From contig NZ_MOAL01000006.1 of assembly GCF_003731765.1 (NCBI RefSeq), positions 440,563-504,562 on the forward strand: DNA of 64,000 nt, given 5' to 3'. The DNA comes from Pseudomonas chlororaphis. Its GTDB lineage: Bacteria > Pseudomonadota > Gammaproteobacteria > Pseudomonadales > Pseudomonadaceae. Numbering within the stretch: the stretch's first letter is position 1; every line of letters begins with the position of its first letter. The notes under the pieces were generated by a model. It was given only the letters and a program-made list of their open reading frames with translations, was not told the origin of the DNA and did no database searches. This document shows, piece by piece, positions 5,304-24,985 of this stretch. The translations under genes were made by a program, and so were the position numbers.

Positions 5304-7615
5304 ATCTGCTCCTCTCCAGTCTCTGCGATGTCACCGATTAGGTTGTCCCAGATTGCTGATATCTCACTAACCGCCTTCTCGCGAATTTCTTCGTGCGCGA
5401 GGTCTGGCAAAGATTTTTGCCTTGCCAGTAGTCGGTCGATCGCCTCAAGGTAAAGGCCTTCGCGCTGGCTCTCTCCGAACTGTTTGCGTCGTTCGAGTTG
5501 GTTGGTTAGCTCTGTGAGTTCGACCTCATTCTGTTCATCGCGCGTATCCATCGCAAGTAACGCATAGTAGCGATCGAAGAGCCGTTCGACGTCGGGATCC
5601 GTTGTAGAGTTGAGCCCGAAGAAAGGCGATGTGAGCAACTGATCGACCCGGAAGTCAGCCGGTGAAGGTAGATCCGTAATGATTTCGACTTCATGGTTCG
5701 CTCCACGATGCATCACTACAATTTCACCCTCTGACAGTCCTCGAAGGCACAGAGGTTGATGAGTAGTGGTGATGAACTGGACCCCAGGCAGGGCTTGTCT
5801 CAGGCTATTGACGATTTGCATCTGCCAGGTTGGATGCAAATGAGCATCAAGTTCGTCAATCATCACGATACCCTCGGCTTCCAATGGATTGCTCCAAACT
5901 CTAGAGAGGATCTCAAGCATGTCGACGGTTGCTGCAACGACGGTCTGATAGCCAACACTGAGGCTGCTCAGGCTGACATTCTCCCCTGAAGCATGAAGGA
6001 AAATGTTTCCTCGGCTTCGATCAAGATAGGCGTCTGGGTCAATCGCAAGTAAATCCTTGAGGATGATTGCGACGCGGTTGAAGTCTTTTCGAGTCAGACT
6101 GGCCAGCCATTTCTGTGCATCCATCAACGGGACGAAGGGATCAAAGAGGTTTTCCACCCGGGCAAAGTCGCCTCCTGGTGGTGAGTCGTTACTTATGCGT
6201 GGCGACAGGCGTGTAGCGCCATATCCTGCCATCACCGTCTGGGGCTCCCACGCAGTTCCTCTAACCTCGCCGTCAAGCATGATGCAGACGGTCTCTTTGG
6301 ATGGGCTAGTGAACTCGAGGTGGTCTTTGAATACCTTGAGTCGGTGTGGCGTGTCGAAGCCACTCATTTTCACGGCGATCTCACCGGAGCGGCAGCGGAA
6401 TCGCACAAGCTCGGGAATACGGATGCGCTGCTCTTTGATAAGCTTTGAGATGTAGGCTGATCCACCTAATACGAGCGCGATCGCTTGGAGCACAGTGCTC
6501 TTGCCGGTGCCATTCTCACCGAGCAGCATCAACCAGCGACCTGCGCCGCTACCTTGCGTCGCTAAATCCACATAAAAGGATCCTAGCGCCCGGATGTTTC
6601 GGATGGATATGGTCTCGATGGAGCGACGTTGAGACTTATACCGTTTGATCCCTTCTTCATCGGCCAGAGAGTAACTTGCCATTCGCTCTCGATAGGCCTT
6701 GGTCGTGCGAACTGCCCTCTTCACGCTTGCGGGGCCAGATACGGGGGCCTTACTTTCAAGTGATCGAAGGTTACGCTTAATGGCGTCGTCTTCTATCACC
6801 TCCGTCAATTTGTGGTTGTTTATTTGTTGCTCAAGCCGGGCTTTATCACGCCGCAGAAATTGTTGGATCATACCGGCATAACTGGCTTCGCTCGCCGCCA
6901 TCTCCAGAAGCTCATCGAGAAACTGCTTGCTTAAGTCGACATCCTTGTCCATCGCCCAAATGACTCTTTCGAACAAGTTTCGATAGTTCTTCGCTGTCTT
7001 ATGCCTTTCATTGGCGAGATTGGGTCGATTCAATCCCAGTATTGAGATCGTCGCATTTCCTCTTTCCGTTTCGCTGAAAACCAGCCCTTCATCTGAGAAC
7101 GTAAGATGTGAGATTGGGTCGTCGAAGGTGGGATTAAGCAGCAATGGTTGTTCCACCGACAAGTCCGTGCTCGGTGTAAAGGCGCGTTTGCTTTCATCAA
7201 TTAAGGGAAATCGATTGTGCTTACCGATCGGCCCCTGCCCCTCACTTTTGTTTGCAGCAGAAAGCGACTTTCGATTGCAAGACTGACAAGCTATCAGCAG
7301 ATTTTCCCAAGAATTGGCTAGCCACCAATAGCCCGGATGATCCCTGGCCTCGGAAACGCTCGCTTTCGGTCTGAACTGCTCGATGTCGGCAAAGGAACCC
7401 ACGATCCGCGTCTCGCAGTAGGCGCATTTATCATGAAAGAGAGCGGATAGCGCTGCTTTTACAGTCGGGTGCTTATAAGCCGTGAACAGAAGTCTCCTCT
7501 GAGAGGACGCTCCCATGACTTCAGCTCCGGCGCGTGCAACTTCTAATGCCGCTTTGCTCGCCAAAGCAGCGTCCTCGAAGGGATTTCGGACAGATTTGCG
7601 GTCAACGAAGATCAT
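5300..7615 (-). CDS. HNH-AAA ATPase fusion, Septu-like (PtuB-PtuA order)
   Basis: A 771-residue two-domain protein. Residues ~1-200 resemble the PtuB HNH fold (KCAYCET..., WENLLIACQSCNRKS). Residues ~340-680 are an SMC/OLD-like ABC ATPase with Walker A GENGTGKST near 365, signature LSSLSVGYQ, and Walker B IVMIDELDAHLHP near 582 followed by TTTHQP. In the HNH part the usual DIEH(F/Y)RPK reads ADIEQFRPK, so the catalytic His is Gln and the fused domain may be inactive. The downstream gene supplies an intact HNH. The layout is that of a Septu-type system, but with ATPase and HNH in one chain. No reverse transcriptase is nearby, so it is not a retron. Confidence 0.8.
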   Translation of the reverse strand: MIFVDRKSVRNPFEDAALASKAALEVARAGAEVMGASSQRRLLFTAYKHPTVKAALSALFHDKCAYCETRIVGSFADIEQFRPKASVSEARDHPGYWWLANSWENLLIACQSCNRKSLSAANKSEGQGPIGKHNRFPLIDESKRAFTPSTDLSVEQPLLLNPTFDDPISHLTFSDEGLVFSETERGNATISILGLNRPNLANERHKTAKNYRNLFERVIWAMDKDVDLSKQFLDELLEMAASEASYAGMIQQFLRRDKARLEQQINNHKLTEVIEDDAIKRNLRSLESKAPVSGPASVKRAVRTTKAYRERMASYSLADEEGIKRYKSQRRSIETISIRNIRALGSFYVDLATQGSGAGRWLMLLGENGTGKSTVLQAIALVLGGSAYISKLIKEQRIRIPELVRFRCRSGEIAVKMSGFDTPHRLKVFKDHLEFTSPSKETVCIMLDGEVRGTAWEPQTVMAGYGATRLSPRISNDSPPGGDFARVENLFDPFVPLMDAQKWLASLTRKDFNRVAIILKDLLAIDPDAYLDRSRGNIFLHASGENVSLSSLSVGYQTVVAATVDMLEILSRVWSNPLEAEGIVMIDELDAHLHPTWQMQIVNSLRQALPGVQFITTTHQPLCLRGLSEGEIVVMHRGANHEVEIITDLPSPADFRVDQLLTSPFFGLNSTTDPDVERLFDRYYALLAMDTRDEQNEVELTELTNQLERRKQFGESQREGLYLEAIDRLLARQKSLPDLAHEEIREKAVSEISAIWDNLIGDIAETGEEQI

Positions 7616-8218
7616 CAGTAAGGGCCATCCAAATACATATCAGCGTCCGCAACTATAGGTGAAATCGGCCAAAAATCAGAACTGTTTAGGCATGCCCTCG
7701 GCCTCGGATGAACGGTTGCAATAACGTCGCAGAGCTTCGATGTCTTTGTCCTTGTCGGTGAGCAGCCATCAGCGTTGCTTCGAAGATGTTTCCGCGCTCG
7801 CAGCGAGCACGGATTCGCATTCCTCTCAACGAAATATCTCAATATGCGATGATCTGGGCGTTGAGAGATTTGGAGTAGGGACAACGCTGTAGCTGCTTAG
7901 AGGACCCGCATAAGAGACTAGAAATGGTGGTCACTGAAAATTTAAGTGCCCACCATGTCTTGACTTCGCGGGATGCGCTAGATGCCCTGTGCCGGGCACA
8001 TGCGCCTCTTGCGTGGGGCTGTCAAAATATTCGGCAACGGATCGCGAGGCAAGAACAATCAGGCGTTGCTTAAGCCCTATTCTCTCTGAGGACCGCAGAA
8101 GTTTTCTAGTTTCTCGGGAGATGTTAATGCTCCAATGGTGGCGTATTGATATTTTCTATATTGTCCGGTTCTATCTTCGCGTATGTTGATACAAATGGAT
8201 GCTAGTTCTGGAGTGAAA
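7616..8218. other. Divergent intergenic region with possible IS remnant
   Basis: This region separates the Septu-like operon from the HNH gene. An 89-codon frame starting with TTG ends exactly at the ATPase start, but it has no ribosome-binding site or recognisable domain. GGTGGTCACTGAAAATTTAA followed by GTGCCCACC (around 7925-7955) resembles terminal DNA of IS21-type elements and may be a remnant. No conserved RNA gene was seen. Confidence 0.4.
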
Positions 8219-9088
8219 ATGTCTCCTTTTGTAATTGGTCAAGAGTACGAAAGACGCCGTCTCCTTGATTTTATTGGTAGTAGGCAAGCGCAGTCAGGTG
8301 TTCTTTGGGGGCGCGACGAGCCAGGATGTCTTATTTGTACATCAGGGGGGCGAGGTGGTAAGAAAGCTGGTTATTCAGATGAGCGACTTCCTGACGGTAC
8401 TTGGTGGTATTTTGGCCAGGGCCGTATGGGAGATCAAACTCTGAGCAATGCCGCGAACTCTAAGCTATCTTCTGGAAAGTATTCAGTTCTACTCTTCACT
8501 ACAAGAGAACCAACTGCGAGGGAAGTGGCCGATCGAGGAAATTATGGGAAATTGTTTTCCTATTGTGGACAGTTTAATGTCTCAGGATATGAGCAGTTCG
8601 TGCCGAATGATGGCGGTCGTCAAGGTGATAAGCTATGGCGTTTTCGTCTACTGCCTATTGGTGACGAGGGATATAATTACTACAGCGATGAAAGTGATCT
8701 GGATCTAGATTTATCCGGGGGCTTGCGAGAGATGCAGTATCGACTAACTTCTTTAGGCTCCAGAAAAATTGAGACTCGGACAAGTGTGGAAGAGTATCGG
8801 TTTAGGAGTGCTGCGGTTCACCTCTACGCCTCTCTTAGATCAACTGGAATATGCGAGGCATGCGGGCTTGTCGCTCCATTCGCTCGTCCTGATGGGCGAG
8901 GATTTCTTGAAGTGCATCATCTCACTCGGCTTGCCGATGAAGGACCAGATTTACCTTCAAATGTTGCTGCACTTTGTCCTAATTGTCATCGCCGTGCCCA
9001 CTATTCTGTTGATAGACAGGAATTCGGTAAGAAGCTTAAAGATGCTATAGCTTTAAAGGAAAATATTGTTTCGGGTGGGGAGGGTTGA
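8219..9088 (+). CDS. ScoMcrA-like HNH endonuclease (modification-dependent)
   Basis: A 289-residue protein. The C-terminal HNH domain is clear: CEACGLVAP, then EVHHLTRLADEGPD, then ALCPNCHRRAHY, giving four zinc cysteines and the catalytic HH. The N-terminal ~190 residues (FVIGQEYERRRLLDFIG, GRMGDQTLS, KLFSYCGQFNVSGYE) look like the SRA-like base-recognition domain of ScoMcrA-type enzymes, which cut 5-methylcytosine and phosphorothioate DNA. I chose ATG 8219 because CTGGAG precedes it. The gene is markedly AT-rich compared with the core genes, a sign of transfer. It stands alone and points away from the Septu-like pair. Confidence 0.75.
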   Translation: MSPFVIGQEYERRRLLDFIGSRQAQSGVLWGRDEPGCLICTSGGRGGKKAGYSDERLPDGTWWYFGQGRMGDQTLSNAANSKLSSGKYSVLLFTTREPTAREVADRGNYGKLFSYCGQFNVSGYEQFVPNDGGRQGDKLWRFRLLPIGDEGYNYYSDESDLDLDLSGGLREMQYRLTSLGSRKIETRTSVEEYRFRSAAVHLYASLRSTGICEACGLVAPFARPDGRGFLEVHHLTRLADEGPDLPSNVAALCPNCHRRAHYSVDRQEFGKKLKDAIALKENIVSGGEG

Positions 9089-9185: not shown

Positions 9186-9608
9186 CTACTTCTGGCGTAT
9201 TAAATCCGCAAGTCGCTTGCCGGTGGTATTTGCTTTTTTGGTAGAGCCTACCTCGCACTCCCAAACGATGAATACTTTCCAGCCTAATGTCTGTAGAGAC
9301 GACGTCACCCGATTGTCTCGGGCGACATTTTTTTCGAATTTCTCCACCCAAAATTCAGTGTTGCTTTTCGGTGTCGTGGCGATGTTGCAGTTGGAATGTC
9401 GATGCCAGAAGCATCCATGGACAAAAACAACGGCCTTGTATCGGGGAAACACAAGATCGGGCTTGCCGGGCAAGCCTAGCCCGTTCAGGCGGTAACGTAG
9501 GCCGAGGCTATGCAGCACTTTGCGCAGCGCTATTTCTGGACGGGTATTACTCCCTTTGATTCGGGCCATCCTTTCTGACCGCTCTTTAGGAGAAAGGAAG
9601 TCGGTCAT
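9186..9608 (-). CDS. vsr: Very short patch repair endonuclease Vsr
   Basis: A 140-residue Vsr protein, close to the family's usual length. It nicks 5' of the T in T:G mismatches that arise by deamination of 5-methylcytosine. Diagnostic parts are SKERSERMARIKGSNTRPEIALRKVLHSLGLRYR, the catalytic Asp in GKPDLVFPRYKAVVFVHGCFWH with the zinc Cys/His, and VIWECEV. It sits 214 bp downstream of the HerA-like gene on the same strand as the C5 methyltransferase, which implies that the local methyltransferase is active on the host chromosome. Confidence 0.93.
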   Translation of the reverse strand: MTDFLSPKERSERMARIKGSNTRPEIALRKVLHSLGLRYRLNGLGLPGKPDLVFPRYKAVVFVHGCFWHRHSNCNIATTPKSNTEFWVEKFEKNVARDNRVTSSLQTLGWKVFIVWECEVGSTKKANTTGKRLADLIRQK

Positions 9609-9821
9609 ATCTGGCCTCCAGTTTGAAATTTTCTCGGTAAGGGCTCTATTTTCATCCTTGACCAGTTCGTAGAGAGACAGTTCACGAGTTATCTCTTCTA
9701 AAGTATCGAAAACTTAAAAGGCTTACACATATTAAAATAACACCTCGAGTCGAACGCATAATGGCGATCGACATGAGGTATGTAGGCAAGAGGTCAGTTT
9801 ATTGCGCCTGTCACTTGCCAG

Positions 9822-12800
9822 TTAGTCAAGTTGATAGAAGGGGACCTCCTCGATGAACTCCCCGCTCCAATCAAGTGTCTTGCAGAGGGAGTTGAATTTC
9901 TCCAGACCTGATATGCGATTTACCATGCTGTCAGAGGCGGCAGGTAGGCCGATTTTGTCTAGGTCTCTCGCTGTTAATCCTGGTACTTGATGGATAAACC
10001 AGCTCCCGATCGGCTCTAGGTAATCTGTCCGCGTTGTTTTGAAATGGCTGAAATACTGGGAGGCAAGAATTACGCCGACTCCGAATGCTCGACCTTGTAC
10101 CAATAGTTTAGTTAGTACTTCAAACTCGTAAGGCATAATGTTGTGGGCCTCATCTACCAATAGGTAAGAGTCGATGAAGCGTGTTTGTGGGTCTGTACCC
10201 AGAAAAGGCTTCTTTTTTATCCTCAACATGTAGTCGAGATAGAGGTTAAGGAAAATAACAACTACCATTTTCTTCAGCTTCTCATCACTGAGGTCTTTCA
10301 AGTCAATGGCCACAACTCCTTCGAAAAATTCGTCGAAACTAACGATTTTTGTCGGGTCATCTTCAAAGATCTCGTAATCCACCATATCACTGATGATTCC
10401 AGTCACGGAGTCAGGCTTATCGACGATCGCTTCGTAGTGTTTGAAAACGTCGTAGATAGTAGGGTCCCGTCCTTCGTCTTCCCTCGTGTGATGATAAGCT
10501 GCCTTGATGGCCTCCTTAAGGTTTTTATCCTGAACCGGCGCGTTTACGGAGAAAATTTTGCGCAAGATGTCTCGGAAGAAGCCGATTTTGTCGAGCATCG
10601 TCCGATTGGAATTGTCTCCGCCCGTCGCGAATAAGTTCAGTGGTATCTTGTGTGGAGATACAACCTTAACCTTAGCCTTATTAATGAACTGGCAGTTATC
10701 TTCTTTGTCGCTGAAATCCCGCTTGTAATCCAGAATCAAGACCTTAGGAGCCACTCCTCGGTTTTGCTCTGGTTGCTTTACCATCTGGTAAACGAGTGAT
10801 TTTAGTAGTTGGGTTTTTCCAGTCCCTAGATCGCCTACTACTCCTATGTTGATATTGGTTAGCTCAGTATTGCCCGGGTAAAAAATGACTTCCTTACTTC
10901 CAATTAGGTCCTTGGTGCTGCCAATTTTGAAATTAAGTCCAGCTACAGCTTCGGGTGCAATGATTTCAGATTCATTGCTTGTAAGAACAGGCTCTTCTAA
11001 CTGCAAGGATGATTCGTTCGGCTCGGGAGAAATCTCGATGAGTCCGGAGGGCTCTTCTTTATCTTCGAGATACAGGTTTTTTTCCTCGGTTATTGGTTCC
11101 GCAGCGGAGCTGCTGACTGCCAGCAGCTTCCAGTTACCTACCTGCTTCACCATGTCTGCAACCACCTGTGGCTGATTCCCAGCCAACAGTGCTCCAGCTA
11201 ACTCTAAGCCGAGAATAGCAGTGTTTTTTAGAGGACTTTTTCCCGTGCACACCACTCGGCTCTTGGACGTGTTCTCAATAGATATCAGGCGCCCTTCAGG
11301 GTCGAGTTCGATTTCGAGCTTGTTCGACATCAATCTTGCGATAGTTTGCTGGTGATACTGAACCCAGCGAGGAGTAGCCTGAGCCACTTCAGTTTCACCG
11401 TAAACACGGAACCCATAATCCAGCCAGCTGGATATCAGGTCACGGTAAGCAATTCCCCAAAGGGCAGAATCTTTTCCACGTTCTTTCAAGTTATTGAGAA
11501 ATCCGGCGAACGATTTAGCCTGCGTTAACGCTTCGTCACGTTGTCTTTCTGTCATCTCGGTGGATCGGGCCTTCACCTCGATTGGCGTGATCTTGAGGGC
11601 ATTCGGCTCGAGTAAGTCGTCCCCTGCATCTATTCCGAAGGCGATGCTTAAAACAAGTAAGTCAGGCCGTTCTCTGGTCTCCGCACCTAGGGCTTTGCGT
11701 AACTCGTCGAAACGCGGCTGGAATACGTCCGCCGGGATCACGAGATTCACCATGCGGTTACCTATTGCAGGAACCAGACCCTTGCCTTCACTACCGCGTT
11801 GGAAGTCTGACTGAAGCAAGCGTGCAGCTATCAGCATGCCTACTTCACCCAGGCTGGCAGAGCCCCCGCTGGTCAGCTTTTTTAGAGTAGGGATCCCTCG
11901 CCGAGAAACCTCGTCAAGCAGCGAAGCCACTTGTTCGTCGCTAACGTTTCTTGTTCCGGGGAGCTGTTTCAGCACGTTCCTCACCGCCGTGACCATGGTT
12001 GGTGACTGTTTTGCCACCAAATAGAATCCGCTCGATTGCCCCGCACCAGGCGCATAACGTGGCAGTTCAAAGTCCCAGAGGTATGCGTCTTTGCCGGGGC
12101 TGTGGAAGCAGGTAGCGTCGACGGCAGAAGAAGAGATGGCGCTGTAGCGCGTATCCCTCAGTGAGTTGTTCAAAGTTTGTAAGTTAGGTGCGAAGCTAAG
12201 GCTGTCAAACTTTGCGTCATTGACACAAGCGGATTCGAGCAACTCCAGGGCTCGGGACAAGCTATCCTGCAGCACGTCACCAGTTGACTCACTAACGAAT
12301 TCGCCAGCTCTGGATAGAGATAAGTATTGCCTGTGGGCAGCCGCGTTTTTCTTGATGCTAACGCGGGATACGCAGGTAGGATCAACAGGGGAAAGTACGC
12401 CGTCTTTGCGGAATTCTTGGTCCATGGTCTGCAAGTGGTCGACGATGGAAAGATCCCGCACAGCGTGATCTCCTTTACTATTGGTATACCACCTAATCTT
12501 GGTGCCTGAGCGCTCTGTTAGGGAAGCAAGCACTGCTGGCCTAGGCTGCTCTATCCGAGGTCTCCTATCTATGATCTGAAGTGTTAAACCATGGGCAGGA
12601 GACCATTCGTCGGCATCGGGCCCAAGATTTTCCAGGCACCACTCATCTATTCCATCATTGCAGGAGCTGTACCCAGATGAGTCGCTGTGCAGGGAAATCC
12701 GGAGAGTGGACTTGGCAGGGTAGAGGTGGCGGATTTCGTCTAAGGAGCGCTTCACCTGCTGCCTATTGAAACCATTTACCATTCCCTCGATCTTCAATCC

Positions 12801-15230
12801 CAGATCATTGCCAAATACCCCTTCATCGTTGCCTTTGCTCACCTCGGCTATTAGATCGGCCCGCCACAGGACTGACCAGTAATCCGACGAGCTTTTAACG
12901 GCGACGTACCCTGCTGGATTAAAACGGCCATCCATATCCCTGCACTTCAGAGCCAGGCAGTCGGGAAAACTGTATGGCTCGATGATCCCGGCAACCGGAC
13001 AGGGTAATCCTGTATTGATCGAGTCCTGCATGAGTTGCTGGGCATTGCATTGCCAAGCCAACCGAACCGGGTGAAAGGGCGACAGTAGTACCGCGAGAGG
13101 TTTGGATTCTAGAAAGTGGCTTTGCTGCTGAGCCTTGTGAACTGTGATCAGGTCTGCCCAGGCTGCGAGGGAGTTAGGCGCAGATAGCCAGTCTACATAC
13201 TCGCAAACGTAACGCTCAATAATGCTGCGGTTATCCTTATCCAACATGAGCTGGCCCAGGCTGAGAGCCTCGATAGTGCATCCTTTATCGTCGCAAAGTT
13301 TTTTTAGAAGCTCCCGTGCTTGTTTCCTGGCTTGTAGGTAACCGGTAGGGGGGGCTAGCTCGTCCGTCCTTGGGCGCGGATCTAAGGACAGGTGACGGGT
13401 GGAAATACGGGGTTGCACGGTCCAATCTGGTTGATGCCAGCTCTCCTTAAAGCCGGGGCCAATAACCAATGGTTGGTATGACTCCTCACTCTCTAAAATC
13501 CATTGCTCAAGTAGAGTCAACATGGATTGCTCGACATCTGTCTTGGCCACGTTTTCAGAGCGAGTGCAGTTGTTGGTGACTAACCTATCGAACTCGCTAG
13601 AGGCCCCTTTGGCCGTAAATTCGTTGGCGCTAATATTAAGGGTATACGTGATCGGGTCGTCTAACTCTGAAAGGCTCATCTCGAAGCTGACTTGACAATC
13701 TTCGGTAATCTCAATAACGGCTAATGCGCGGCCCTCTTGTACCTCGGCGGTTGTTAATGGCCAAACCACTTCGCTAGCGTTTATCCCTTCGCCGAGTTGA
13801 CCGTGAATACTGTCAGGCAGGCTCACAGAATTACAATGAAAGAACTCGATAGTCTGGGTGCCGGTACCGTTAGTCACCAATTCACATTCGTATTGAACAG
13901 TAGTCTTCGCTCCACGGCCTACCCTTTTCTTTTTAAAAGGAGTTAGTTTCTGAGCTGATCGGCAGTTTAGTACCACTTTAGGTAGGTAAGACTCCAGTGA
14001 TATTAATTTGAATGTGGCAGGCTTTTCCTGCTTTTTGCAGGTGAATTCATAGCGAACGTACTGTTCATGATCACAAGGCCAAAAATTATCTTCCCACTGA
14101 GTTTTAAGATCACTAATGGTGATCGTATGAATCAGCTCAAGGGTTTTCCGACCTGAAGCACGGTACACAGAAAGTTCCTCGCCCAATAACTCCTCATCAA
14201 CGCGGAGTAGGAATTGGGGTGAGCTTTTTACAACTGCCAACTGGCTATTCAAGGTAGGGCGGAACAACTCATTGGCACAGATAACATTGACCGTGCCCAG
14301 ATCTTTACTTTCTTCCTGATTGAGCAGCTCAATCCACACGGATTGCGAAAGTACTTGCCACCATTGTGCCCCCTCAGCATTCCCGGCTTTGGCGTAGTTT
14401 CCGAGCGGGCGGGTAACGAATCTCTGTGGCGTCCGGTACAGCATCACGAAGTCTTGATTCAGAAGTTTCAGAGCTTCGGAAACCTCCTCTGAGCTGGCTT
14501 CCTCTTGCAGCAAGTTGATACCGGCCGTGAAGCCATGAGCTTGCATGTAGCTGGCAATGTTGTAGTTCAAATTTGGCTGGGGAGGTTCGCCTTCTTCCAG
14601 CTTTGGTACTCCAAGGGCGTGACATAGGTCCCGGCTGGTTTTTCCATTCCCCCCTAGGTCGTATAAGGCCCGGAGCAACTCCCAGGGTTCTTGCATGTCT
14701 CCGGTCTGCGCAGACTCGATGAAGGCCTCCTCCAGAGCTTCCCATGCTAGTTCTTTTACCTCAGGAGGCACTTCTTTAAACCGGCTCAAGACTGCTTTAA
14801 AGACATCCTCTACGAAAGGTTCATCTTTCCATGTAGAGAAAGAGACGTGATTTACCCGATTCAGACCCAGTTTGTTTGCTGTGGTATCTGTAGATAGTAA
14901 TGGGGGGGAATTGATAGTCGAAAGTGCCAAGTAAGAGCCATAGGAGGTTCTAATCGCCACTACATGGTTACTCGAACACCGGGTGGTGTTCTGGTGTGAG
15001 GGGTCCTCAACCCCTTCCTGAACCCGTAATACGGGCACCCGCATTACATGGCCATCAGACTCTAGCTCCAAACGGGGGCCCATTGCATCGAATCTGTCGT
15101 AGATCTCGTCGAGAATGCTACCTGGAGGGGCACAGAATGTGACCCTCAAGTCGTTAACTTCCGACGAGATAAAGTGTCCAGCTTCTGCTCGTATCTTCGA
15201 TACCAGATAGCCTATAAAGTCACCGATCAC
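9822..15230 (-). CDS. Giant HerA/FtsK-like translocase with embedded PD-(D/E)xK motif (DptH-like)
   Basis: About 1,802 residues. The C-terminal third is a HerA/FtsK-type ATPase: Walker A GDLGTGKTQ near residue 1463, Walker B YLLVDEAHNIMP near 1688, then GVGVILASQYFSHF. Just before it, around residues 1190-1220, RPDLLVLSIAF...ITPIEVKARS has the Asp and Glu-x-Lys spacing of a PD-(D/E)xK nuclease. The first ~1,150 residues are unassigned; they include SPFHPVRLAWQ. I prefer GTG 15230, which follows the stop of the previous gene (TAA-A-GTG) with AAGGA upstream; ATG 15293 would overlap by 62 bp. Size, position and ATPase resemble DptH of DptFGH, but no dnd modification genes are present. Confidence 0.7.
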   Translation of the reverse strand: MIGDFIGYLVSKIRAEAGHFISSEVNDLRVTFCAPPGSILDEIYDRFDAMGPRLELESDGHVMRVPVLRVQEGVEDPSHQNTTRCSSNHVVAIRTSYGSYLALSTINSPPLLSTDTTANKLGLNRVNHVSFSTWKDEPFVEDVFKAVLSRFKEVPPEVKELAWEALEEAFIESAQTGDMQEPWELLRALYDLGGNGKTSRDLCHALGVPKLEEGEPPQPNLNYNIASYMQAHGFTAGINLLQEEASSEEVSEALKLLNQDFVMLYRTPQRFVTRPLGNYAKAGNAEGAQWWQVLSQSVWIELLNQEESKDLGTVNVICANELFRPTLNSQLAVVKSSPQFLLRVDEELLGEELSVYRASGRKTLELIHTITISDLKTQWEDNFWPCDHEQYVRYEFTCKKQEKPATFKLISLESYLPKVVLNCRSAQKLTPFKKKRVGRGAKTTVQYECELVTNGTGTQTIEFFHCNSVSLPDSIHGQLGEGINASEVVWPLTTAEVQEGRALAVIEITEDCQVSFEMSLSELDDPITYTLNISANEFTAKGASSEFDRLVTNNCTRSENVAKTDVEQSMLTLLEQWILESEESYQPLVIGPGFKESWHQPDWTVQPRISTRHLSLDPRPRTDELAPPTGYLQARKQARELLKKLCDDKGCTIEALSLGQLMLDKDNRSIIERYVCEYVDWLSAPNSLAAWADLITVHKAQQQSHFLESKPLAVLLSPFHPVRLAWQCNAQQLMQDSINTGLPCPVAGIIEPYSFPDCLALKCRDMDGRFNPAGYVAVKSSSDYWSVLWRADLIAEVSKGNDEGVFGNDLGLKIEGMVNGFNRQQVKRSLDEIRHLYPAKSTLRISLHSDSSGYSSCNDGIDEWCLENLGPDADEWSPAHGLTLQIIDRRPRIEQPRPAVLASLTERSGTKIRWYTNSKGDHAVRDLSIVDHLQTMDQEFRKDGVLSPVDPTCVSRVSIKKNAAAHRQYLSLSRAGEFVSESTGDVLQDSLSRALELLESACVNDAKFDSLSFAPNLQTLNNSLRDTRYSAISSSAVDATCFHSPGKDAYLWDFELPRYAPGAGQSSGFYLVAKQSPTMVTAVRNVLKQLPGTRNVSDEQVASLLDEVSRRGIPTLKKLTSGGSASLGEVGMLIAARLLQSDFQRGSEGKGLVPAIGNRMVNLVIPADVFQPRFDELRKALGAETRERPDLLVLSIAFGIDAGDDLLEPNALKITPIEVKARSTEMTERQRDEALTQAKSFAGFLNNLKERGKDSALWGIAYRDLISSWLDYGFRVYGETEVAQATPRWVQYHQQTIARLMSNKLEIELDPEGRLISIENTSKSRVVCTGKSPLKNTAILGLELAGALLAGNQPQVVADMVKQVGNWKLLAVSSSAAEPITEEKNLYLEDKEEPSGLIEISPEPNESSLQLEEPVLTSNESEIIAPEAVAGLNFKIGSTKDLIGSKEVIFYPGNTELTNINIGVVGDLGTGKTQLLKSLVYQMVKQPEQNRGVAPKVLILDYKRDFSDKEDNCQFINKAKVKVVSPHKIPLNLFATGGDNSNRTMLDKIGFFRDILRKIFSVNAPVQDKNLKEAIKAAYHHTREDEGRDPTIYDVFKHYEAIVDKPDSVTGIISDMVDYEIFEDDPTKIVSFDEFFEGVVAIDLKDLSDEKLKKMVVVIFLNLYLDYMLRIKKKPFLGTDPQTRFIDSYLLVDEAHNIMPYEFEVLTKLLVQGRAFGVGVILASQYFSHFKTTRTDYLEPIGSWFIHQVPGLTARDLDKIGLPAASDSMVNRISGLEKFNSLCKTLDWSGEFIEEVPFYQLD

Positions 15231-15231
15231 T

Positions 15232-16770
15232 TTAGTTTCCTTCTTTGCCGGCTTTCGCCAAGGGGCTAGCGATAACCATGCCACCTTCGGCATCGGGGCT
15301 ATCGATGGCGATGGACATATCTCTTAGTCTCTTGTTCAAGCTTTCACCTTTCCCTAGGGCCATTTCGGCGCTGATACCATATCCGGCCAGCTGCTGGCAA
15401 AGATTCTGCACGGTGCAGGGGCCTGTTACCCGACTAGCTGCACAATGGACCATCAGCAACGTCGACAGGGGGCCGAGACCAACAACGCGCGGTGAGCTTT
15501 TGTGGTTGCTGCGTTTCTCCATGTAGTACCCCTGATCATAACCTTCGAGTCCGGCCTCGGAAGTTATGCGCTGGCGAGCAACATGTTCTAGAAACTCCAA
15601 CACGTTCTTCGACGAACCCTTCTTGCATTCTGCAATCTTGGGGTCGCTTTCTATTATTTGGTTAAAGTTATTAAGATACAGTTTGAAGTCAAATTTACCG
15701 CGATGTTTGGCTAGATAGTCCAGAGTTTCGGCAATCTCCACAATGGATCCTAAGCTGACCTGCGACATATCAAAACCGGAATCCTCCAGCATATACAGCA
15801 ACAAATTCAGGGCGCCACGCCCTTCGATGTAATGACGTGCTGCCTCCTTTATCGGTTTCGCTGTAAGTTGGCCAATACTCCAAAACCCTTTTCCTGTTGA
15901 TAGTTCTTCAGATACTTCGCCTTCGCTACGGGTCCTCCCTAGGCTCAACGCTTCCTCTATAAGTTCGCAGCATTTGTTGTTAGCGTGGCAACACCAGGTG
16001 ACATGAGCGGCGGTTCCAATCCGGCATAAAGACTCCAACATGCTTACCCATTGCCTACGGGTAAGGTCCTGCTTTAAATCGAGCACCACGTGAAGATCTT
16101 CAACAAAGCGCTTGGCTGGGCAATCAAGGTTTAACGCGCCGGGAAAGATGTCTTCGTCCTGTGGGAATTCGCTCGGCAATTGCCAGGCTTCACTTATCTT
16201 TTTTACACGCCAGGACTCGAATTCCGTTTGCAGCATTCTGGCCCAAACATCATCTTCTTCTGACGTGACGCTCAGCTTATAGAAAAGTTTCTGCCAGGTT
16301 GCCAAAGCTGTGCCGTAGTCATTGCTACCAAGGGCAATCATTCTTGCCACTAGTTTACCTGGGTTCCATGGATGTCCCGTGAGCCGCGCTGACATGGAAT
16401 ATAGCGTGGCGTCGGGTACGAGCGGGGCGATTTGACTTCCTCGTTGGCGGGATTGTCCCGAGAGATTCGGTGTCGCAATTACGCAATTTACTACTGTGTT
16501 CCACAGCTTGGTATCAAACGCCACCTCGCTTTGAGCGTTATCCGGGCGCTTCCCAGTTGCCAGCTGTTTTTTGAAAGGTGTTCCAAGCACCCAGACTGCT
16601 TCACCAGCTTTGCTATCTGCGAATCCTACGTTCCTATATAGAGACGCGAGCAGGATTTCGCCAGTTGTTACTTCAGGCGACGGTGTCAAATGCAAGAAGC
16701 TATTCTTGTAAGTCTTGTGCGAACTAGATTTTCCCCAGGGGTCGTTCAAGTAGTCCTTTAGCTTGTCCAT
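15232..16770 (-). CDS. Middle protein of DptFGH-like module, unknown function
   Basis: A 512-residue soluble protein I cannot assign to a named domain. It starts MDKLKDYLNDPWGK, has a Trp-rich helical middle (GTALATWQKLFYKLS), a Cys cluster (HVTWCCHANNKCCEL) and ends with a Lys/Gly-rich tail. It begins 3 bp after the stop of the upstream ATPase gene and ends 1 bp before the GTG of the HerA-like gene, so the three are one translational unit. By position and size it corresponds to DptG. It may bridge the two ATPases or bind DNA; both are inference. Confidence 0.6.
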   Translation of the reverse strand: MDKLKDYLNDPWGKSSSHKTYKNSFLHLTPSPEVTTGEILLASLYRNVGFADSKAGEAVWVLGTPFKKQLATGKRPDNAQSEVAFDTKLWNTVVNCVIATPNLSGQSRQRGSQIAPLVPDATLYSMSARLTGHPWNPGKLVARMIALGSNDYGTALATWQKLFYKLSVTSEEDDVWARMLQTEFESWRVKKISEAWQLPSEFPQDEDIFPGALNLDCPAKRFVEDLHVVLDLKQDLTRRQWVSMLESLCRIGTAAHVTWCCHANNKCCELIEEALSLGRTRSEGEVSEELSTGKGFWSIGQLTAKPIKEAARHYIEGRGALNLLLYMLEDSGFDMSQVSLGSIVEIAETLDYLAKHRGKFDFKLYLNNFNQIIESDPKIAECKKGSSKNVLEFLEHVARQRITSEAGLEGYDQGYYMEKRSNHKSSPRVVGLGPLSTLLMVHCAASRVTGPCTVQNLCQQLAGYGISAEMALGKGESLNKRLRDMSIAIDSPDAEGGMVIASPLAKAGKEGN

Positions 16771-16773
16771 GAC

Positions 16774-18888
16774 TCACCCTCTAAACCGGATAGATTTGCT
16801 AACTTTCACCGTGTAGGTGTCCTGGCCTATGGTCAGCTCAACGTTACCGTCTACGAAATTTTTATCCCTTGCAATTTGGCCAGCAGTTACCGATTTCACT
16901 TCGTCGAATAGGGCAAACACCTCCTGTGGAAGGGAGGCTGCGTCGAGCCCTTCCTCGAGCTCCACGAGAGCCTTGTAGAGCGCAAAAGTGACTGGTATAT
17001 ACCTGTTGTGAACTTTTATGAACGGGAAGCGATTTGCTGGCCGGGAAGCATCTCCTAGGAACATTTCCATTGAAGTTTTGACGCTGCGGACACGTAGCGA
17101 AACTTCCCTATCCCAGTGAGCAACAGGCTGACCAAAAGTAGTGGATAGGGGGATCTTAAAAATACGCCTGTCTTCGTTTACCAATTGTTCGACTAGGTCT
17201 TCGAGGTTTTCATGCTGAAAATCGCTCTGGTATAAACCGGCGTAATCCACGAATAGCTTTACGTCCTTGGATACCCCGTACTTTAATCCTAGGCTCCGTT
17301 TCACCAGCCTTCCTGCGAACTGTCTCATGGAGGACTGTAGCCGCCGCACTTGTCTGGATACCTTGGCAGGATGGTGTTGGTCCATCAGGACCTCGTCTGC
17401 TTCCGATAGCTGTGCAAGTAGCTTGCGTTCGCTCGGTGCCAGACGGTTAGATACCAATTCCAGCCCGTCTTTTATGGAGAGACTAAAGTGCTCATCCACA
17501 TCGTTGACGGTAACTATCTTTCCATCCTTCGTCTCGGTATACATCTTCTGTTCGCCGTATAAGAGCGCGGGGTCCAAGAAGGTGGCGAAATCACCTGACA
17601 GAAGTTCACTGATAGCAGTGTGTTCTTTCTCGGCTAGGACTTTAAGAGACCCGAAATGATACTTCGCCATGTTGAAGGCTTTTTCGTCAACCTGGTCTGG
17701 TACCTTTGACCCTGCGAACACTGCGTGGTGAGCCTCGAGATGCTTGCCTGAGGCTAGTCGGGGCCAGTTGGAGAACAGCCGGTGGTGATATAGCCGAGAG
17801 GTCAACAAGTAGCGAGCGCGAGCTCCTGCCAACGTGCTAGGGCCCTTCGTCTCCAGTTGGAGCATCTTGGCCGTCCAGTCGCAAGGCGTGTAAGACTTGC
17901 CGTCGATCGTCAAGGATCCTGGTTCCCCAATGAAAAGGTGAGACACCAGTGAATACAAGTCGCGAAACGTCCATCGTTTGCCAGATGCGAGCTCGTAGTA
18001 GTGAAGAAATTGGATCAGGTTATCGCGAGCTTTTTCGCTCGCCAGCAAAGTTTTGTTTTGACAAAACGGGCAGTCTGCCTTGTTGTTGCACGCTGGCTTC
18101 CACTTTTCCTCGGCCAGGGCCTTTTCTAGTACTAGGTGTGCAACTGTGCTGCCTGAATCACCATCTCGGGGGGCAACCAAAGAGTCCACGTCCATGGGCC
18201 ACAATGCAAGGTTGCTTTCTTGAAGGGGCCAGCAAGCTGGAGCATCTACGCCTCCACTCACGGCGGAGACGATTTTTGCGATAAATGAAGCCATCTCTGT
18301 GTCGCCGGTTCGGATGGCAAGCGCTGAAGTGTTTGCCAGAATTCCGCGATTTACACAGCCGATGTAAATACCTTTGTACTCGCCGTACCTAATTGCCCGC
18401 AGTTCTTTTAGTAGCAGCGACTCTGCTGTCTCACCTGGTTGCGCCGGGTCTTTTTCAGTGGCGTCTTGAACCAACTGGATAACAGGAATCATGCCACTAC
18501 CATCCGGTACGATTCCGTCGAATTCAACCTCGGTTCGTCGAGGGGGGAGGGACCCTGATGGGTTCTTGTACTGATTCGAGAACTTATTCAGCAGCTGCCC
18601 ACCCGCACCGCTTAGCCGATCAAAAGTCTCGATGGCCCCCTCAACCGCATCAGTTTTCCCATTTCCGGGCCCGCCGACCAGTAAGACGGCCGAAGGAGTT
18701 CCAGGGGTGCCTGCGATAATTGAGCCAACCCAGTTCGACAATTTTTCTACTAGGGGCGTTTTTAGTTGCTCTTTTACGGGTCTTCCAGACTCTTCTTGGA
18801 AGGGCTGCCTAACTCCTCCTTTTTTGGCCCCAGACCAGTTGATCAGCCCCTCTGGGTAAAGCAATTCATCTTGCCTTTCAAATTCCAT
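16774..18888 (-). CDS. AAA+ ATPase, first protein of DptFGH-like module
   Basis: 704 residues from ATG 18888, which has AAGGG upstream. A P-loop LLVGGPGNGKTDA lies near residues 70-80 and a probable zinc knuckle (CNNKADCPFCQ) near 280. The rest is helical, with a segment RKLLAQLSEADEVL. It is the upstream member of a three-gene unit with a DptG-sized and a DptH-sized protein, so a DptF-like role (ATP-dependent sensor or licensing factor in restriction) is inferred from layout, not from a confirmed match. The frame stays open for another 57 codons upstream, to a CTG with a good ribosome-binding site, so the true N-terminus may be longer. Confidence 0.65.
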   Translation of the reverse strand: MEFERQDELLYPEGLINWSGAKKGGVRQPFQEESGRPVKEQLKTPLVEKLSNWVGSIIAGTPGTPSAVLLVGGPGNGKTDAVEGAIETFDRLSGAGGQLLNKFSNQYKNPSGSLPPRRTEVEFDGIVPDGSGMIPVIQLVQDATEKDPAQPGETAESLLLKELRAIRYGEYKGIYIGCVNRGILANTSALAIRTGDTEMASFIAKIVSAVSGGVDAPACWPLQESNLALWPMDVDSLVAPRDGDSGSTVAHLVLEKALAEEKWKPACNNKADCPFCQNKTLLASEKARDNLIQFLHYYELASGKRWTFRDLYSLVSHLFIGEPGSLTIDGKSYTPCDWTAKMLQLETKGPSTLAGARARYLLTSRLYHHRLFSNWPRLASGKHLEAHHAVFAGSKVPDQVDEKAFNMAKYHFGSLKVLAEKEHTAISELLSGDFATFLDPALLYGEQKMYTETKDGKIVTVNDVDEHFSLSIKDGLELVSNRLAPSERKLLAQLSEADEVLMDQHHPAKVSRQVRRLQSSMRQFAGRLVKRSLGLKYGVSKDVKLFVDYAGLYQSDFQHENLEDLVEQLVNEDRRIFKIPLSTTFGQPVAHWDREVSLRVRSVKTSMEMFLGDASRPANRFPFIKVHNRYIPVTFALYKALVELEEGLDAASLPQEVFALFDEVKSVTAGQIARDKNFVDGNVELTIGQDTYTVKVSKSIRFRG

Positions 18889-19059
18889 GTTATCCCTTGA
18901 ATACAATTGCTTGAGCTGCTGCGACCTTCCGATGAGGTCGATTAAATTGCACAGAGTTGGAGCTGAAAAACTAAGCTGCTGATTGTTCCTTTGGCCGCTG
19001 TAGAGTCGAAGGATGGCCTGCCTAATAGAAAAGGTTGCGAGTTCGCGCTGCTCTTCCAG
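18889..19059 (-). other. Possible N-terminal extension of the ATPase gene (CTG start)
   Basis: In frame with the ATPase, codons from CTG 19059 to ATG 18888 contain no stop and encode a protein-like helical sequence (FSIRQAILRLY, LCNLIDLIGRSQQLKQLYS). AAGGA lies 9 nt before the CTG. Using it would leave only 33 nt after the methyltransferase stop, a normal operon gap. No ATG, GTG or TTG occurs in this extension; an in-frame TGA precedes it. Confidence 0.4.
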
Positions 19060-19092
19060 TGGGTGTCATCCTTTTTTCTCGAGTCCTTTGAT

Positions 19093-20784
19093 TTAAGCTA
19101 TGGCTAAGGTTTTCTGTTCTACTTCAGCGACTGCTTTTTGGCTAGCGGCCGCCACCGCTTCTTCTAGTACCGAACTGATGGCCATCCCGATGGCTCTCGC
19201 GAGGTAGGGAGGCACAGCGTTGCCCACTTGCGTGTAGCGCGGGCATTCCTTAGTTCGTTGGCTTCCGCCGGTTGTGAATTTGCCTCGGAACTGGAACCAA
19301 TCGGGAAACGACTGCAGACGCGCAGACTCTCGGACGGTCAGTATCCTGGGCTCGCTGTAGTGGAGCACATCGTCGGGCAAGGTTGTTATTGTTGGCGCGG
19401 GAATTTCCTCGTGCATTAGGCAAATTCGGTGCTTCTTGAGGCCGTATTTTTCCCTTTGGGCCAAACTCATCAAACCACCCCGATTGCACTCAGGATCATC
19501 AATGATTCTCATGAACCGCTCACTGATTTCGGGTTTGTGATTTGCTAAGCGTACGCTGTCCATAGGGGTGTCGCACCCCTGATGCATGAGGGCTTGGTAA
19601 TGTGTCCGAGGCCCCTTATATGCGATCTCTCTAAAGCCGGTACGTGAGGAGGGATCAGTGCATGGCCTGATTCCCGCGTGCTCAATCTCCAGATCAGAAA
19701 TTGCCTCCGAAGCGCTGACTACTTCTGGAAGGCGAAGCTCCTGCAGTTGATTCAGCCTGGCTTCCTCTAGAAGCTCGAAAGCTCTATTAGCGCCACCACG
19801 GAGATGGCGAGCGAGATCTTTGTGGATCCCTATTACGATTAGGCGTGGGCGCTTCTGGGGAACACCGAAGAGTGAGCAGTCCACTATTTTACCGAGGACC
19901 TCATAGCCAACCCCATTCAGGCTTTCGACAAGCTTGTCATAGTAGGAATGAGGCTTCACTTTCGTTAGGCCAAGTTCTTCTTTCCAAGATTTGGCTTTAT
20001 GCGCGACCTTCATGCCCGGTACGTTTTCCAGGACAATGGCCGCTGGCTGAATAGCCTTGACCATTTCCACGTACTTTTCAAACAGTTGATTTCGGGGGTC
20101 GGACTCTAGTCGCTTCCCTGCGAAACTGAATCCTTGGCAGGGAGGGCCACCGGCAAGTACATGCACTTTGCCCTTGAGCTCGGAAAGCCTAAGTGGGTGC
20201 TGTTCAAGAATTTCATCGATACCCCAGGCTTTTCTTTTCAGCCAATCAGGCCATTTGAATTGAGGTACAAGCTCGTCACGCCCTTCGAGCAGGTTTGCCG
20301 AAAGGGTGGAAAATGCCATTTTGTCGCGTTCGACGGCAAAAACGCCGTTTAGCCCTGCGAGCGATAGACCTAGAGATAGGCCTCCACAGCCCGCAAAAAG
20401 ATCTGCGAACATCAAAGGTTGCCCAGAGGCGGGTAGTGGGGGGAGGGTTTCGAGTTTTTTCATGGGCTCCTGCCCGGATACGGTTGTTTTCAGGGTAGGG
20501 AGCGTCTCGCGAAGCCCTTGGCTATAGCCTATACAGGCAGCACGATGGTGGTCTTTTTTCGCCACCGATGTTTGATTCTTAATCGGCATGCTGACTAGTG
20601 GTAGCTCGGTAGGCGCCGAGGGGGCAATAGTGATGGATAATGGATTGCCCCGCAAGCAAGCCCAATGCCTTGGGCTGCCTGGCTGCTGGCTTGGTTTGAG
20701 ACCACAGGCTTTACATATGTCGTTGAATTTGTCTAGAAATATTGCATCGGAAAAGCCTTGGGCTTTGCTAGGTGGTACCCACAT
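19093..20784 (-). CDS. C5-cytosine DNA methyltransferase
   Basis: A 563-residue DNA (cytosine-5) methyltransferase. Motif I is FADLFAGCGGLSLGL, motif IV is GGPPCQGFSFAGKR with the catalytic Cys, motif VI is IVLENVPGM, and motif X is YTQVGNAVPPYLARAI. About 120 extra residues precede motif I and include CXXC-like cysteines. The start has AGGAG seven nucleotides upstream. It heads a minus-strand series leading through the DptFGH-like genes to vsr. A LexA-like box overlapping a TATAAT lies ~150 bp upstream. The target sequence is unknown; whether it protects against the neighbouring ATPase module is the key open point. Confidence 0.92.
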   Translation of the reverse strand: MWVPPSKAQGFSDAIFLDKFNDICKACGLKPSQQPGSPRHWACLRGNPLSITIAPSAPTELPLVSMPIKNQTSVAKKDHHRAACIGYSQGLRETLPTLKTTVSGQEPMKKLETLPPLPASGQPLMFADLFAGCGGLSLGLSLAGLNGVFAVERDKMAFSTLSANLLEGRDELVPQFKWPDWLKRKAWGIDEILEQHPLRLSELKGKVHVLAGGPPCQGFSFAGKRLESDPRNQLFEKYVEMVKAIQPAAIVLENVPGMKVAHKAKSWKEELGLTKVKPHSYYDKLVESLNGVGYEVLGKIVDCSLFGVPQKRPRLIVIGIHKDLARHLRGGANRAFELLEEARLNQLQELRLPEVVSASEAISDLEIEHAGIRPCTDPSSRTGFREIAYKGPRTHYQALMHQGCDTPMDSVRLANHKPEISERFMRIIDDPECNRGGLMSLAQREKYGLKKHRICLMHEEIPAPTITTLPDDVLHYSEPRILTVRESARLQSFPDWFQFRGKFTTGGSQRTKECPRYTQVGNAVPPYLARAIGMAISSVLEEAVAAASQKAVAEVEQKTLAIA

Positions 20785-23507: not shown

Positions 23508-23858
23508 ATGAAGGGTTATGTAAGCGTGTCTAATCAAGAGCGCTGTGAGGCACTCTTGAGCACGTGTCGAATGAAGCTAGAGAATGGTGGCATACAAGGC
23601 GAATTGGATATCGGGTTGGTCTGTGAGCTGAAACGAGCATCATTTTTGGCTCAGCAGCTTATCAAGTCGGAGGGGGATGCATTTGAGTTGTATATCGATA
23701 GCGAGGGTGGCGATGCTCTTAAGTTTAACAAGCCGGGTGATATATTGCGTAAACTGGTAAGGATGCATGTTTTCGGTGATAGCCGATTCGTTGAGCTTTA
23801 TAAGTTTGAGCCGTATGAATCGCCCCGCCCTCATAGACATTTTCCAGCTTCAAAGTGA
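23508..23858 (+). pseudogene. Hypothetical island gene truncated by the IS element
   Basis: The first ~102 codons (MKGYVSVSNQERCEALLS...DSRFVELYKFEPYE) belong to the island. From 23816 the frame runs into the IS left end, so the last ~14 codons (SPRPHRHFPASK) are IS-encoded and the original C-terminus is missing. No continuation is seen beyond the IS right end at 25086. No family recognised. The composition is AT-rich. Confidence 0.55.
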
Positions 23859-24704
23859 GGCACTTTCGAAGGCCTCAGGACTGACGCCGCCCAGGTAACT
23901 GTGACGACGCGTTCGGTTGTAAAACGCTTCAATGTAATCGAATACGTCGGCACGGGCCATGTTACGGGTTTTGTAGATCCTCTTGCGAATGCGTTCTTTT
24001 TTCAGGCTGCTGAAAAAAGACTCCGCCACGGCATTGTCCCAGCAGTTTCCACGGCGGCTCATACTCGGCTCTAGGTGGTTGGCCAAACAAAAACGTTTCC
24101 AGTCATCGCTGCCATATTGGCTACCCTGATCCGAATGCACGATGACTCTGGTTTTGGGTTTACGGCGCCATACCGCCATGAGCAGTGCATCCAATGCCAG
24201 CTCCTTGCCCAGCGTTGGCTTCATTGACCAGCCGACCACTTTGCGAGCATACAGATCCAGTACGACGGCCAGATATAACCAGCCCTGCCACGTCCGGATG
24301 TAAGTGATATCGGTCACCCAAGCCTTATTAGGGGCGTCGACAGTGAACGCCCGGTTGAGTCGATTGGGGGCAATGATCGATGGCCGCCCTTTGATTGCGC
24401 GCGGGGCTTTATAGCCTCTGAGCGCCTTGATTTTATTGGTGCGCATCAGTGCCGCGACACGGTGCTTGCCGCAACTTTCTCCAGCCTCGCGCAAGTCAGC
24501 AAACACCCTCCGTGCACCATACACACCTCGACTGGCCGCATAGGAGTCGCGGATCAGCCCTAACAGCCGACCATTCTCTTTTTCTCGATCAGAAACAGGC
24601 TTGTGTAGCCATTGATAGAACCCGGCACGAGCAACTTGCAAAACCCGACACAGCGTAGTGATCGCGTATTGATGTCGGTGCTCGTTCATAAAGCGGTATT
24701 TCAC
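23850..24704 (-). CDS. IS3-family transposase OrfB (DDE integrase core)
   Basis: A 284-residue DDE transposase: HTH_21-like start (CRVLQVARAGFYQWL), then the rve core with PNKAWVTDITYIRTWQGWLYLAVVLDL, HSDQGSQYGSDDW and the Glu in NCWDNAVAESFFSSLKKE. It starts with GTG overlapping the orfA stop (GTGA). The full-length enzyme is probably the OrfAB fusion made by -1 frameshifting at AAAAAAG in orfA. All catalytic residues are present, so it looks intact. Confidence 0.93.
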   Translation of the reverse strand: MKYRFMNEHRHQYAITTLCRVLQVARAGFYQWLHKPVSDREKENGRLLGLIRDSYAASRGVYGARRVFADLREAGESCGKHRVAALMRTNKIKALRGYKAPRAIKGRPSIIAPNRLNRAFTVDAPNKAWVTDITYIRTWQGWLYLAVVLDLYARKVVGWSMKPTLGKELALDALLMAVWRRKPKTRVIVHSDQGSQYGSDDWKRFCLANHLEPSMSRRGNCWDNAVAESFFSSLKKERIRKRIYKTRNMARADVFDYIEAFYNRTRRHSYLGGVSPEAFESASL

Positions 24705-24985
24705 TCGGGTTCCCTGGCGAAGTACCGCGCTGCCTTTTTTAAGATGTCGCGCTCTTCTTCCAAACGTCGCATTTGGGCTCGCAGCCGTAAAATCTCGCTT
24801 TTGGCTTCGAGCAGTTCGCTGGCCTGTTTCTCGGTTTTGTCAGGCGTCACGGCTTTGACCCATTTGTAGAGGCCGTGGGTCGAAACGCCGAGGCGCTCGG
24901 CTGTTTCCGCAACGGAGTATCCGCGCTCAATGACTTGCCTGACGGCTTCTGCCTTGAATTCCGGCGTGAATCGTTGGGTGCTCAT
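24701..24985 (-). CDS. IS3-family transposase OrfA (HTH_Tnp)
   Basis: A 94-residue DNA-binding subunit: TPEFKAEAVRQVIERGYSVAETAERLGVSTHGLYKWVK is the helix-turn-helix, followed by a leucine-zipper helix (LLEAKSEILRLRAQMRRLEEERDILKKA). ATG 24985 has AGGAGG upstream. The frame extends further upstream without protein character, so longer starts are rejected. Confidence 0.9.
   Translation of the reverse strand: MSTQRFTPEFKAEAVRQVIERGYSVAETAERLGVSTHGLYKWVKAVTPDKTEKQASELLEAKSEILRLRAQMRRLEEERDILKKAARYFAREPE

Follow-up and report, generated by a model that had tools for sequence, protein, structure and literature searches.

The closest described relatives of the locus analyzed here belong to the DndFGH (DptFGH) restriction machinery. 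The DndFGH proteins assemble 2:2:1 into a complex that translocates along DNA and nicks it; phosphorothioate (PT) represses its ATPase, and a host without the mark is harmed (PMC10470545, PMC11662687; here and below, published work is cited from parts of the papers named). It is debated whether DndFGH, known as held back by PT, can obey another mark or none. We describe a 64,000-nucleotide stretch of the Pseudomonas chlororaphis genome (contig NZ_MOAL01000006.1, positions 440,563 to 504,562; hereafter the window), in which a remote DndFGH module, called here F, G, and H, lies between the gene for a C5-cytosine DNA methyltransferase (M) and the repair gene vsr. The clade to which it belongs represents natural DndFGH machines with a base-methylation partner. 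We think it rather probable that the locus is a restriction system under the control of C5-cytosine methylation, composed of two exchangeable halves.

Positions 9186-20784 of the window are filled by five open genes on the minus strand, transcribed in the order M, F, G, H, vsr:

19093..20784, minus strand: M, C5-cytosine DNA methyltransferase (563 amino acids; PF00145, 3.1e-56)
16774..18906, minus strand: F, DndF/DptF-like P-loop protein (710 amino acids from a TTG)
15232..16770, minus strand: G, predicted DndG-like DNA-binding protein (512 amino acids; its model matches 7exx)
9822..15293, minus strand: H, DndH-like protein (1823 amino acids from the first ATG; PADLOC DndH, 3.3e-62)
9186..9608, minus strand: vsr, very-short-patch-repair endonuclease (140 amino acids; TIGR00632)

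F, G, and H as a Remote DndFGH Module

Curated models overlook F and G of this clade, and H would be labelled plain DndH from its motor. At a threshold of E 0.01, F and G had no match in PADLOC, NCBIfam, or Pfam, and no PHROGs family was found for them. The models TIGR03238, TIGR03236, and TIGR03237, which do match canonical DptF, DptG, and DptH, had no match to F, G, or H at the same threshold. The PADLOC DndH models recognize H in its C-terminal part only (residues 1233-1822), and phmmer matches H to the solved C-terminal domain of DptH, 7es4 (2.6e-36).

More distant similarity was assessed by hhalign, using profiles of eight canonical DptF, seven DptG, and six DptH proteins and 40 column-shuffled profiles as the null. 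F scored 55.8 with DptF (best wrong partner 36.5, shuffle maximum 22.9), and G scored 33.0 with DptG (19.9 and 23.2, respectively). The whole of H scored 459.5 with DptH; with the motor removed, H 1-1440 scored 49.2 with DptH 1-1345 (shuffle maximum 26.1), and this score is carried by the middle part, since H 640-1440 alone yields 49.1. With smaller sets, two sequences each of DptF and DptG, the comparison had failed (p 0.018 for F and 0.51 for G); with the enlarged sets F became clear and G suggestive, and structure then settled G. The AlphaFold2 model of G has a mean predicted local distance difference test (pLDDT) score of 63. The first Foldseek match of this model is the solved DndG structure 7exx (E 0.02, template modeling score (TM-score) 0.26-0.30). 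In a second structure comparison 7exx is the sole entry with Z above 5 (Z 15.7, 316 residues aligned, root-mean-square deviation 4.7; next entry 3.6). In DndH, the N-terminal part comprises SWI2/SNF2-like, beta-sandwich, target-recognition, and inactive methyltransferase domains; for the counterpart region of H, the profile scores were 49.1 (640-1440) and 22.7 (1-640), and confidence in the model is low there. Modeling of H 640-1823 gave a poor result overall (mean pLDDT 49); the motor of this model matches 7es4 (Z 24.5) ahead of VirB4 (16.2), and the nuclease region of the same low-confidence model has weak matches to McrC (6.0), PaqCI (5.2), and Bse634I (5.1).

Conserved motifs agree with these assignments. 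F contains the motifs GGPGNGKT, VQDAT, and NRGIL and a C-x5-C-P-x-x-C cluster. The P-loop is followed by DA[TS] in 13/13 F and 8/8 canonical DptF proteins, and the N-x-G-x-L motif is present in 13/13 and 4/8, respectively. H combines a PD-(D/E)XK-like nuclease motif (RPDLL...PIEVK, residues 1209-1241) with a HerA/FtsK-type motor that starts at about residue 1450 and contains the Walker A sequence GTGKT. The glutamate and lysine of the EVK motif are invariant in eight of eight H proteins, and the pattern P[IV]EVK is present in ten of 11. The F-G-H order with the known sizes recurs in the window and in loci L002, L007-L009, L019-L021, L024, L028, and L034. We conclude from the profiles throughout, and from structure models for G and the H motor, that F, G, and H are a remote DndFGH module; judged by its profile score and motifs, F is a predicted derived P-loop kinase of the DndF type.

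An earlier note on this DNA had described three coupled genes (704, 512, and 1,802 amino acids), DptFGH-like and on one strand with a C5 methyltransferase and vsr, the largest encoding a HerA protein with a nuclease-like motif. All five genes are indeed open and in the order it gave, the right Dpt partner scores highest in each profile comparison, and both the ATPase and the nuclease-like motif are found in H. The model search it proposed was borne out by the C-terminal part of H and failed for F and G. Druantia, DISARM, BREX, and MADS were also considered and rejected: among the matches listed from PADLOC for the nine proteins of 3068-20784, the only resemblances to their signature proteins are those of the C5 methyltransferase to DruM and DrmMII and of the ATPase to mad8.

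Linkage to a C5-Cytosine Methyltransferase

The F-bearing loci read are the window, L002, L007, L008, L009, L018, L019, L020, L021, L024, L025, L028, L034, and L035. All 14 have a C5 methyltransferase gene next to the F-G-H block, separated from it by 3 to 390 bp: on the same strand upstream of F in 12, downstream of H in L018, and divergent from F in L025. The three methyltransferases least like M of the window still match PF00145 at 3.8e-60 or better, and the PPCQ motif is present in 14/14. A profile of five M proteins found the methyltransferase in 13/13 non-window loci (weakest match 6.8e-57) and had no match at E 1e-3 in eight canonical DptF plasmid loci, three of which (L022, L037, and L040) have Dnd modification genes nearby. 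Two of the controls, L038 and L039, are unannotated and were examined by open reading frames only; no long H frame was found in L039. Of the 72,556 plasmid records in the collection, 612 have a match to M at E 1e-5, and the top four are the four F-bearing records themselves.

DndC exceeded its cut-off in none of the 12 FGH-bearing genomes and plasmid records (eight and four, respectively); the genome G084 has one match below the cut-off (130.1 against 290.4 bits), on another contig. The DndC model is unmatched in the genome of the window; of the dnd genes, the genome-wide search there covered dndC alone.

The ratio of nonsynonymous to synonymous substitution rates (dN/dS) between the window and L002 is 0.17 for M, 0.11 for F, G, and H each, and 0.07 for Vsr, which points to purifying selection on all five genes. 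The M-F-G-H block is found again in other genera. Recurrence in other genera and dN/dS values of 0.07-0.17 make the arrangement more than chance.

The FGH module could instead be a stand-alone counter-invader machine, as Rakesh et al. propose for DndFGH, and M with Vsr would be an independent passenger of these defence islands. Decoupling of DndFGH from modification genes is common (PMC10853773), and the window, with its Septu-like and Mrr-type genes, is itself a defence island. We consider this explanation unlikely, given that a C5 methyltransferase adjoins F-G-H in 14/14 loci against 0/8 canonical DptFGH controls and is kept when either half is swapped. The same counts uphold the suggestion of the earlier note that the three genes are tied to a C5 methyltransferase. 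It had named, as evidence to the contrary, homologues that as a rule lack such a neighbor; the loci read provided none.

Exchange of the Two Halves

The window and L008 are 85% identical in M and 86% in Vsr, and only 33%, 32%, and 31% in F, G, and H, respectively. At the DNA level, identity is 80-92% along M to about position 19,160, 70-75% over the last hundred bases of M, at most 65% in the compared stretch of F and at the end of H, and 62-90% in vsr. This drop across FGH, with high identity over M and vsr, shows that the FGH cassette has been swapped between M and vsr.

The opposite case is provided by L018 and L028. Their F and G proteins are 75% and 79% identical, whereas the methyltransferases share 37% (26% in the target-recognition region), that of L028 is about 140 residues longer, and the two genes sit on different sides of FGH. 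At the level of sequence, this comparison shows that different M genes came to adjoin related FGH. The approximately unbiased (AU) test, with groups picked after the identity table was known, gave concordant results. On the F data, grouping the window with the loci sharing its M is rejected (p-AU 3.9e-5), and on the M data grouping by F is rejected (p-AU 2e-27). Grouping L018 with L028 on the M data gave p-AU 0.017, with long branches present. Thus the C5 methyltransferase is retained in both kinds of exchange.

Recognition by FGH of the sequence that M methylates would predict a region of F, G, or H that diverges between L018 and L028 as sharply as their methyltransferases do; the parts that could be compared contain no such region. 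For H, the comparison begins after the first ~180 residues, H of L018 being split. A block tracking M was rejected for H, F, and G, save for the linker near H 1410-1440, which varies in every pair. Two explanations would account for this: a common site of the L018 and L028 methyltransferases, or reading of methylation by FGH irrespective of sequence. The latter is a tentative idea that we hold to be less probable than its negation: FGH would read 5-methylcytosine without a fixed recognition sequence, and different C5 methyltransferases could license it. If true, it would explain why F and G at 75-79% identity stand beside methyltransferases at 37%, why no block of F, G, or the part of H that could be compared tracks M, and how one methyltransferase clade can have FGH, GHKL, and Druantia-like modules beside it.

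The split H gene of L018 (8992-14365, plus strand) consists of two open frames of 164 and 1623 amino acids; M of this locus is open.

Vsr and Other Modules beside the M Clade

Vsr (TIGR00632, 155.8 bits against a cut-off of 97.85; motifs GKPD and FVHGCFWHRH in the window) was found in eight of the 13 F-bearing loci with the downstream side covered, and, in addition, in L029, a partial locus. The M proteins of the eight loci belong to one clade, with at least 58% mutual identity. It was not found in the stretches examined of L009, L018, L024, L025, and L028, nor in seven loci with M only. In its distribution, Vsr tracks M rather than FGH; its link with the module, proposed in the earlier note, is present in the window but optional across the loci.

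Twelve of the 398 Pseudomonas genomes have M at E 1e-80 or better, and five of these are the FGH genomes. Six of the remaining seven carry a conserved pair of ~770- and ~310-residue proteins beside M. Three of the six ~770-residue proteins were scanned and have HATPase_c_3 and HATPase_c domains, and one ~310-residue protein has a sub-threshold receiver match. In the seventh genome (L059, 8666-19807, plus strand), an M relative (45% identity) lies beside DruF-like and DruE genes in a Druantia-like locus. FGH-, GHKL-, and Druantia-linked genes are interleaved in the M tree. Moreover, a GHKL protein with HATPase_c_3 and HATPase_c domains directly follows H in L024 (3-2312, minus strand; the stretch ends inside the gene), so that this locus has two effector modules beside one C5 methyltransferase. 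Thus one C5 methyltransferase clade offers a slot filled by unlike ATP-driven defence modules.

Other genes lie downstream of H or vsr in several loci. In L025 (635-1330, minus strand), the gene after H, where other loci carry vsr, encodes an HhH-GPD glycosylase matching a PADLOC model named type II nicking endonuclease; it is possible that this glycosylase substitutes for Vsr in T:G repair. In L028 (869-2197, minus strand), H is followed by a gene for a 443-residue protein with weak PADLOC matches to LmuA (2.4e-11) and PDC-M48B. A gene for a ~586-residue protein, 88-95% identical between loci, follows vsr in L019 (14916-16676, plus strand), L020, and L029; neither Pfam nor PADLOC matched the copy in L019.

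Proposed Mechanism

We suggest that M most likely marks self and FGH attacks unmarked DNA, based on homology and on the constant M-FGH linkage, because of which the methylation by M is taken as the mark for FGH. Cytosine methylation would then probably serve to distinguish DNA of the cell itself from that of invaders. Judged by its family and intact motifs, M would methylate cytosines at its site genome-wide. With the activities carried over from published DndFGH, F, G, and H would form the same type of machine: G would bind DNA, H would translocate by its HerA/FtsK motor and nick or cut by its PD-(D/E)XK-like domain, and F would bind nucleotide and have a regulatory role. On DNA without the mark of M the motor would run and the DNA would be damaged, and marked DNA would stall or silence it, as PT does for DndFGH. 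Vsr, by its family, would repair T:G mismatches arising from the methylcytosines of M. The observed swaps fit what one would expect if a defence system diversifies but is obliged to keep its self mark.

Several points weigh against this scheme. Dam (N6-adenine) methylation gave no protection from canonical DndFGH, and exclusive sensing of PT was suggested by the authors of that study (PMC10470545). According to Rakesh et al. (PMC10853773), DndFGH acts alone; a review states that single deletions of dndF, dndG, or dndH do not fully abolish restriction. In Erwinia amylovora a "SAM-dependent methyltransferase" of unstated kind lies beside canonical dptFGH and dnd genes (PMC10587187), and in the canonical locus L042 a Dam-family adenine methyltransferase gene and an AlwI gene are upstream of dptF; a methyltransferase near DptFGH need not be the source of its mark. 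In the profile comparison, the first part of H (1-640) was not significantly similar to DptH 1-560 (score 22.7, p 0.12). Further, the 14 loci are related, and 14/14 does not count independent events; because of this, the swaps are a stronger argument than the count.

The sign of control is not fixed by the genomic data, and a machine activated by 5-methylcytosine is possible. FGH would then be stimulated on methylated host DNA, for instance at stalled or invaded forks, and the methylation would not shield it. PT does enhance the NTPase of DndI and SspE (PMC11662687, PMC8092258), but it represses the ATPase of DndFGH itself, and cells lacking PT are harmed; we therefore regard activation as quite improbable. 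Locus pairs in which one half is conserved and the other exchanged make it directly testable what FGH reads, be it the self mark that we propose or another signal.

Genomic Neighborhood, Gene Starts, and Distribution

Other features of the window include the following:

3068..4111, plus strand: PADLOC candidate PDC-S02 (5.6e-155) with an Mrr-type nuclease domain
4320..7615, minus strand: Septu-like pair, PtuB homologue (PADLOC 1.2e-117) and PtuA homologue (1.6e-257)
8183..9088, plus strand: HNH gene with Type IV restriction resemblance (8.3e-19), facing vsr
23508..25276, minus strand: IS3-like frame pair, read from the translations

M might shield the host from one of these nucleases, the HNH or the Mrr-type protein, and its linkage to FGH would then be indirect. 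Both genes lie within 16 kb, and the HNH gene also stands beside vsr in L002/L010, as an 84% identical copy in the same place. Among the other FGH loci, however, blastp with the HNH protein as a probe detected it in L002/L010 alone (the probes did not include the Mrr-type gene), and it is M beside F-G-H that is constant. We consider this explanation very improbable.

The first ~260 residues of the Septu-like PtuA homologue also match PtuB models. Beside the IS3-like pair, a 116-residue frame, likewise read from the translations, looks like the initial part of a 360-residue gene that is open in L002 (3204-4286).

Some gene starts have alternatives. For F, an ATG at 18888 yields 704 amino acids, and the majority of homologues start there; for H, a GTG at 15230 yields 1802 amino acids and is closer to the start of the homologues. 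M carries intact PPCQGFS, ENVP, QKRPR, and GNAV motifs. Its catalytic domain starts at about residue 125, and the initial ~100 residues are missing in several homologues, so that translation of M may in fact begin further in.

The module is rare. F matches five of the 398 Pseudomonas genomes at E 1e-3. The class sample gave matches in seven of 369 genomes, among which, besides the genome of the window, L024 and L025 (the latter weak) were read as FGH loci. In the phylum sample F matches two of 398 at E 1e-8, one being the genome of the window. F with part of G had no blastn match in Escherichia coli genomes, F of L025 had no plasmid match, and a single scan of genome contigs found one near-identical locus. 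The counts leave out the class-sample matches G477, G653, G703, and G707 (short stretches, E 1e-3 to 1e-5), four further matches (one on a cut contig and three sub-threshold), L029 (partial), L010 (in the L002 genome), L036 (on the L034 contig), CP002245.1 (63% of H, named as the strain of L020), and the frame matching the SspF model. FGH as a phage gene was rejected: the phage record in question, L029, is an unverified 10.8 kb faecal scaffold.

Comparison with Known Systems

Three groups of systems resemble the locus in their methyltransferase. The CxC-DndE systems are a precedent for cytosine methylases replacing PT genes in Dnd-related loci, but there the methylase goes with a DndDE-like core (PMC10853773). 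C5 methyltransferase and Vsr neighbors of a GHKL (paraMORC-like) ATPase have been described (PMC2292703, PMC8011034), and in six Pseudomonas loci the neighbors of a related M are a GHKL ATPase pair, whereas the effector proteins are unrelated to F, G, and H. Pfam reported neither HEF_HK nor Response_reg_2 in this pair, and its likeness to PMC8011034 rests on architecture. Druantia with the DruM cytosine methylase is approached in L059, where a related M adjoins DruE and DruF homologues; the set of the window, in contrast, is without DruE or DruF.

SspBCD-SspFGH resembles the locus in having a three-gene block that harms unmarked DNA and includes a Walker-A protein as well as a translocase-like one (PMC8092258). 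Its own mark is single-stranded PT, however, and F of the window has no SspF match at E 0.01. F of the most distant locus, L025 (8411-10483, minus strand), has a weak SspF match (3.3e-8), a hint at a possible link between DndF- and SspF-type proteins through this clade. A 1387-residue frame in L062 (G059:C5:69915-70862) partially matches the SspF model (3.8e-18).

Among the literature matches listed, with supplementary files outside the scope, no paper on DndFGH or DptFGH with a C5 methyltransferase was found; the nearest case is the SAM-dependent methyltransferase beside dptFGH in E. amylovora (PMC10587187). The parts of Rakesh et al. 2024 (PMC10853773) cited here report no DndFGH with a C5 methyltransferase, the main text contains "vsr" zero times, and the supplementary tables may already list such loci.

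The closest system is DndBCDE-DndFGH (DptFGH). The window shares with it the gene order, the sizes, the P-loop with DA[TS] of F, the fold of G, and the nuclease motif and HerA/FtsK motor of H. It differs in having no curated DptF, DptG, or DptH match, no DndC above the cut-off, and a C5 methyltransferase in place of the PT genes.

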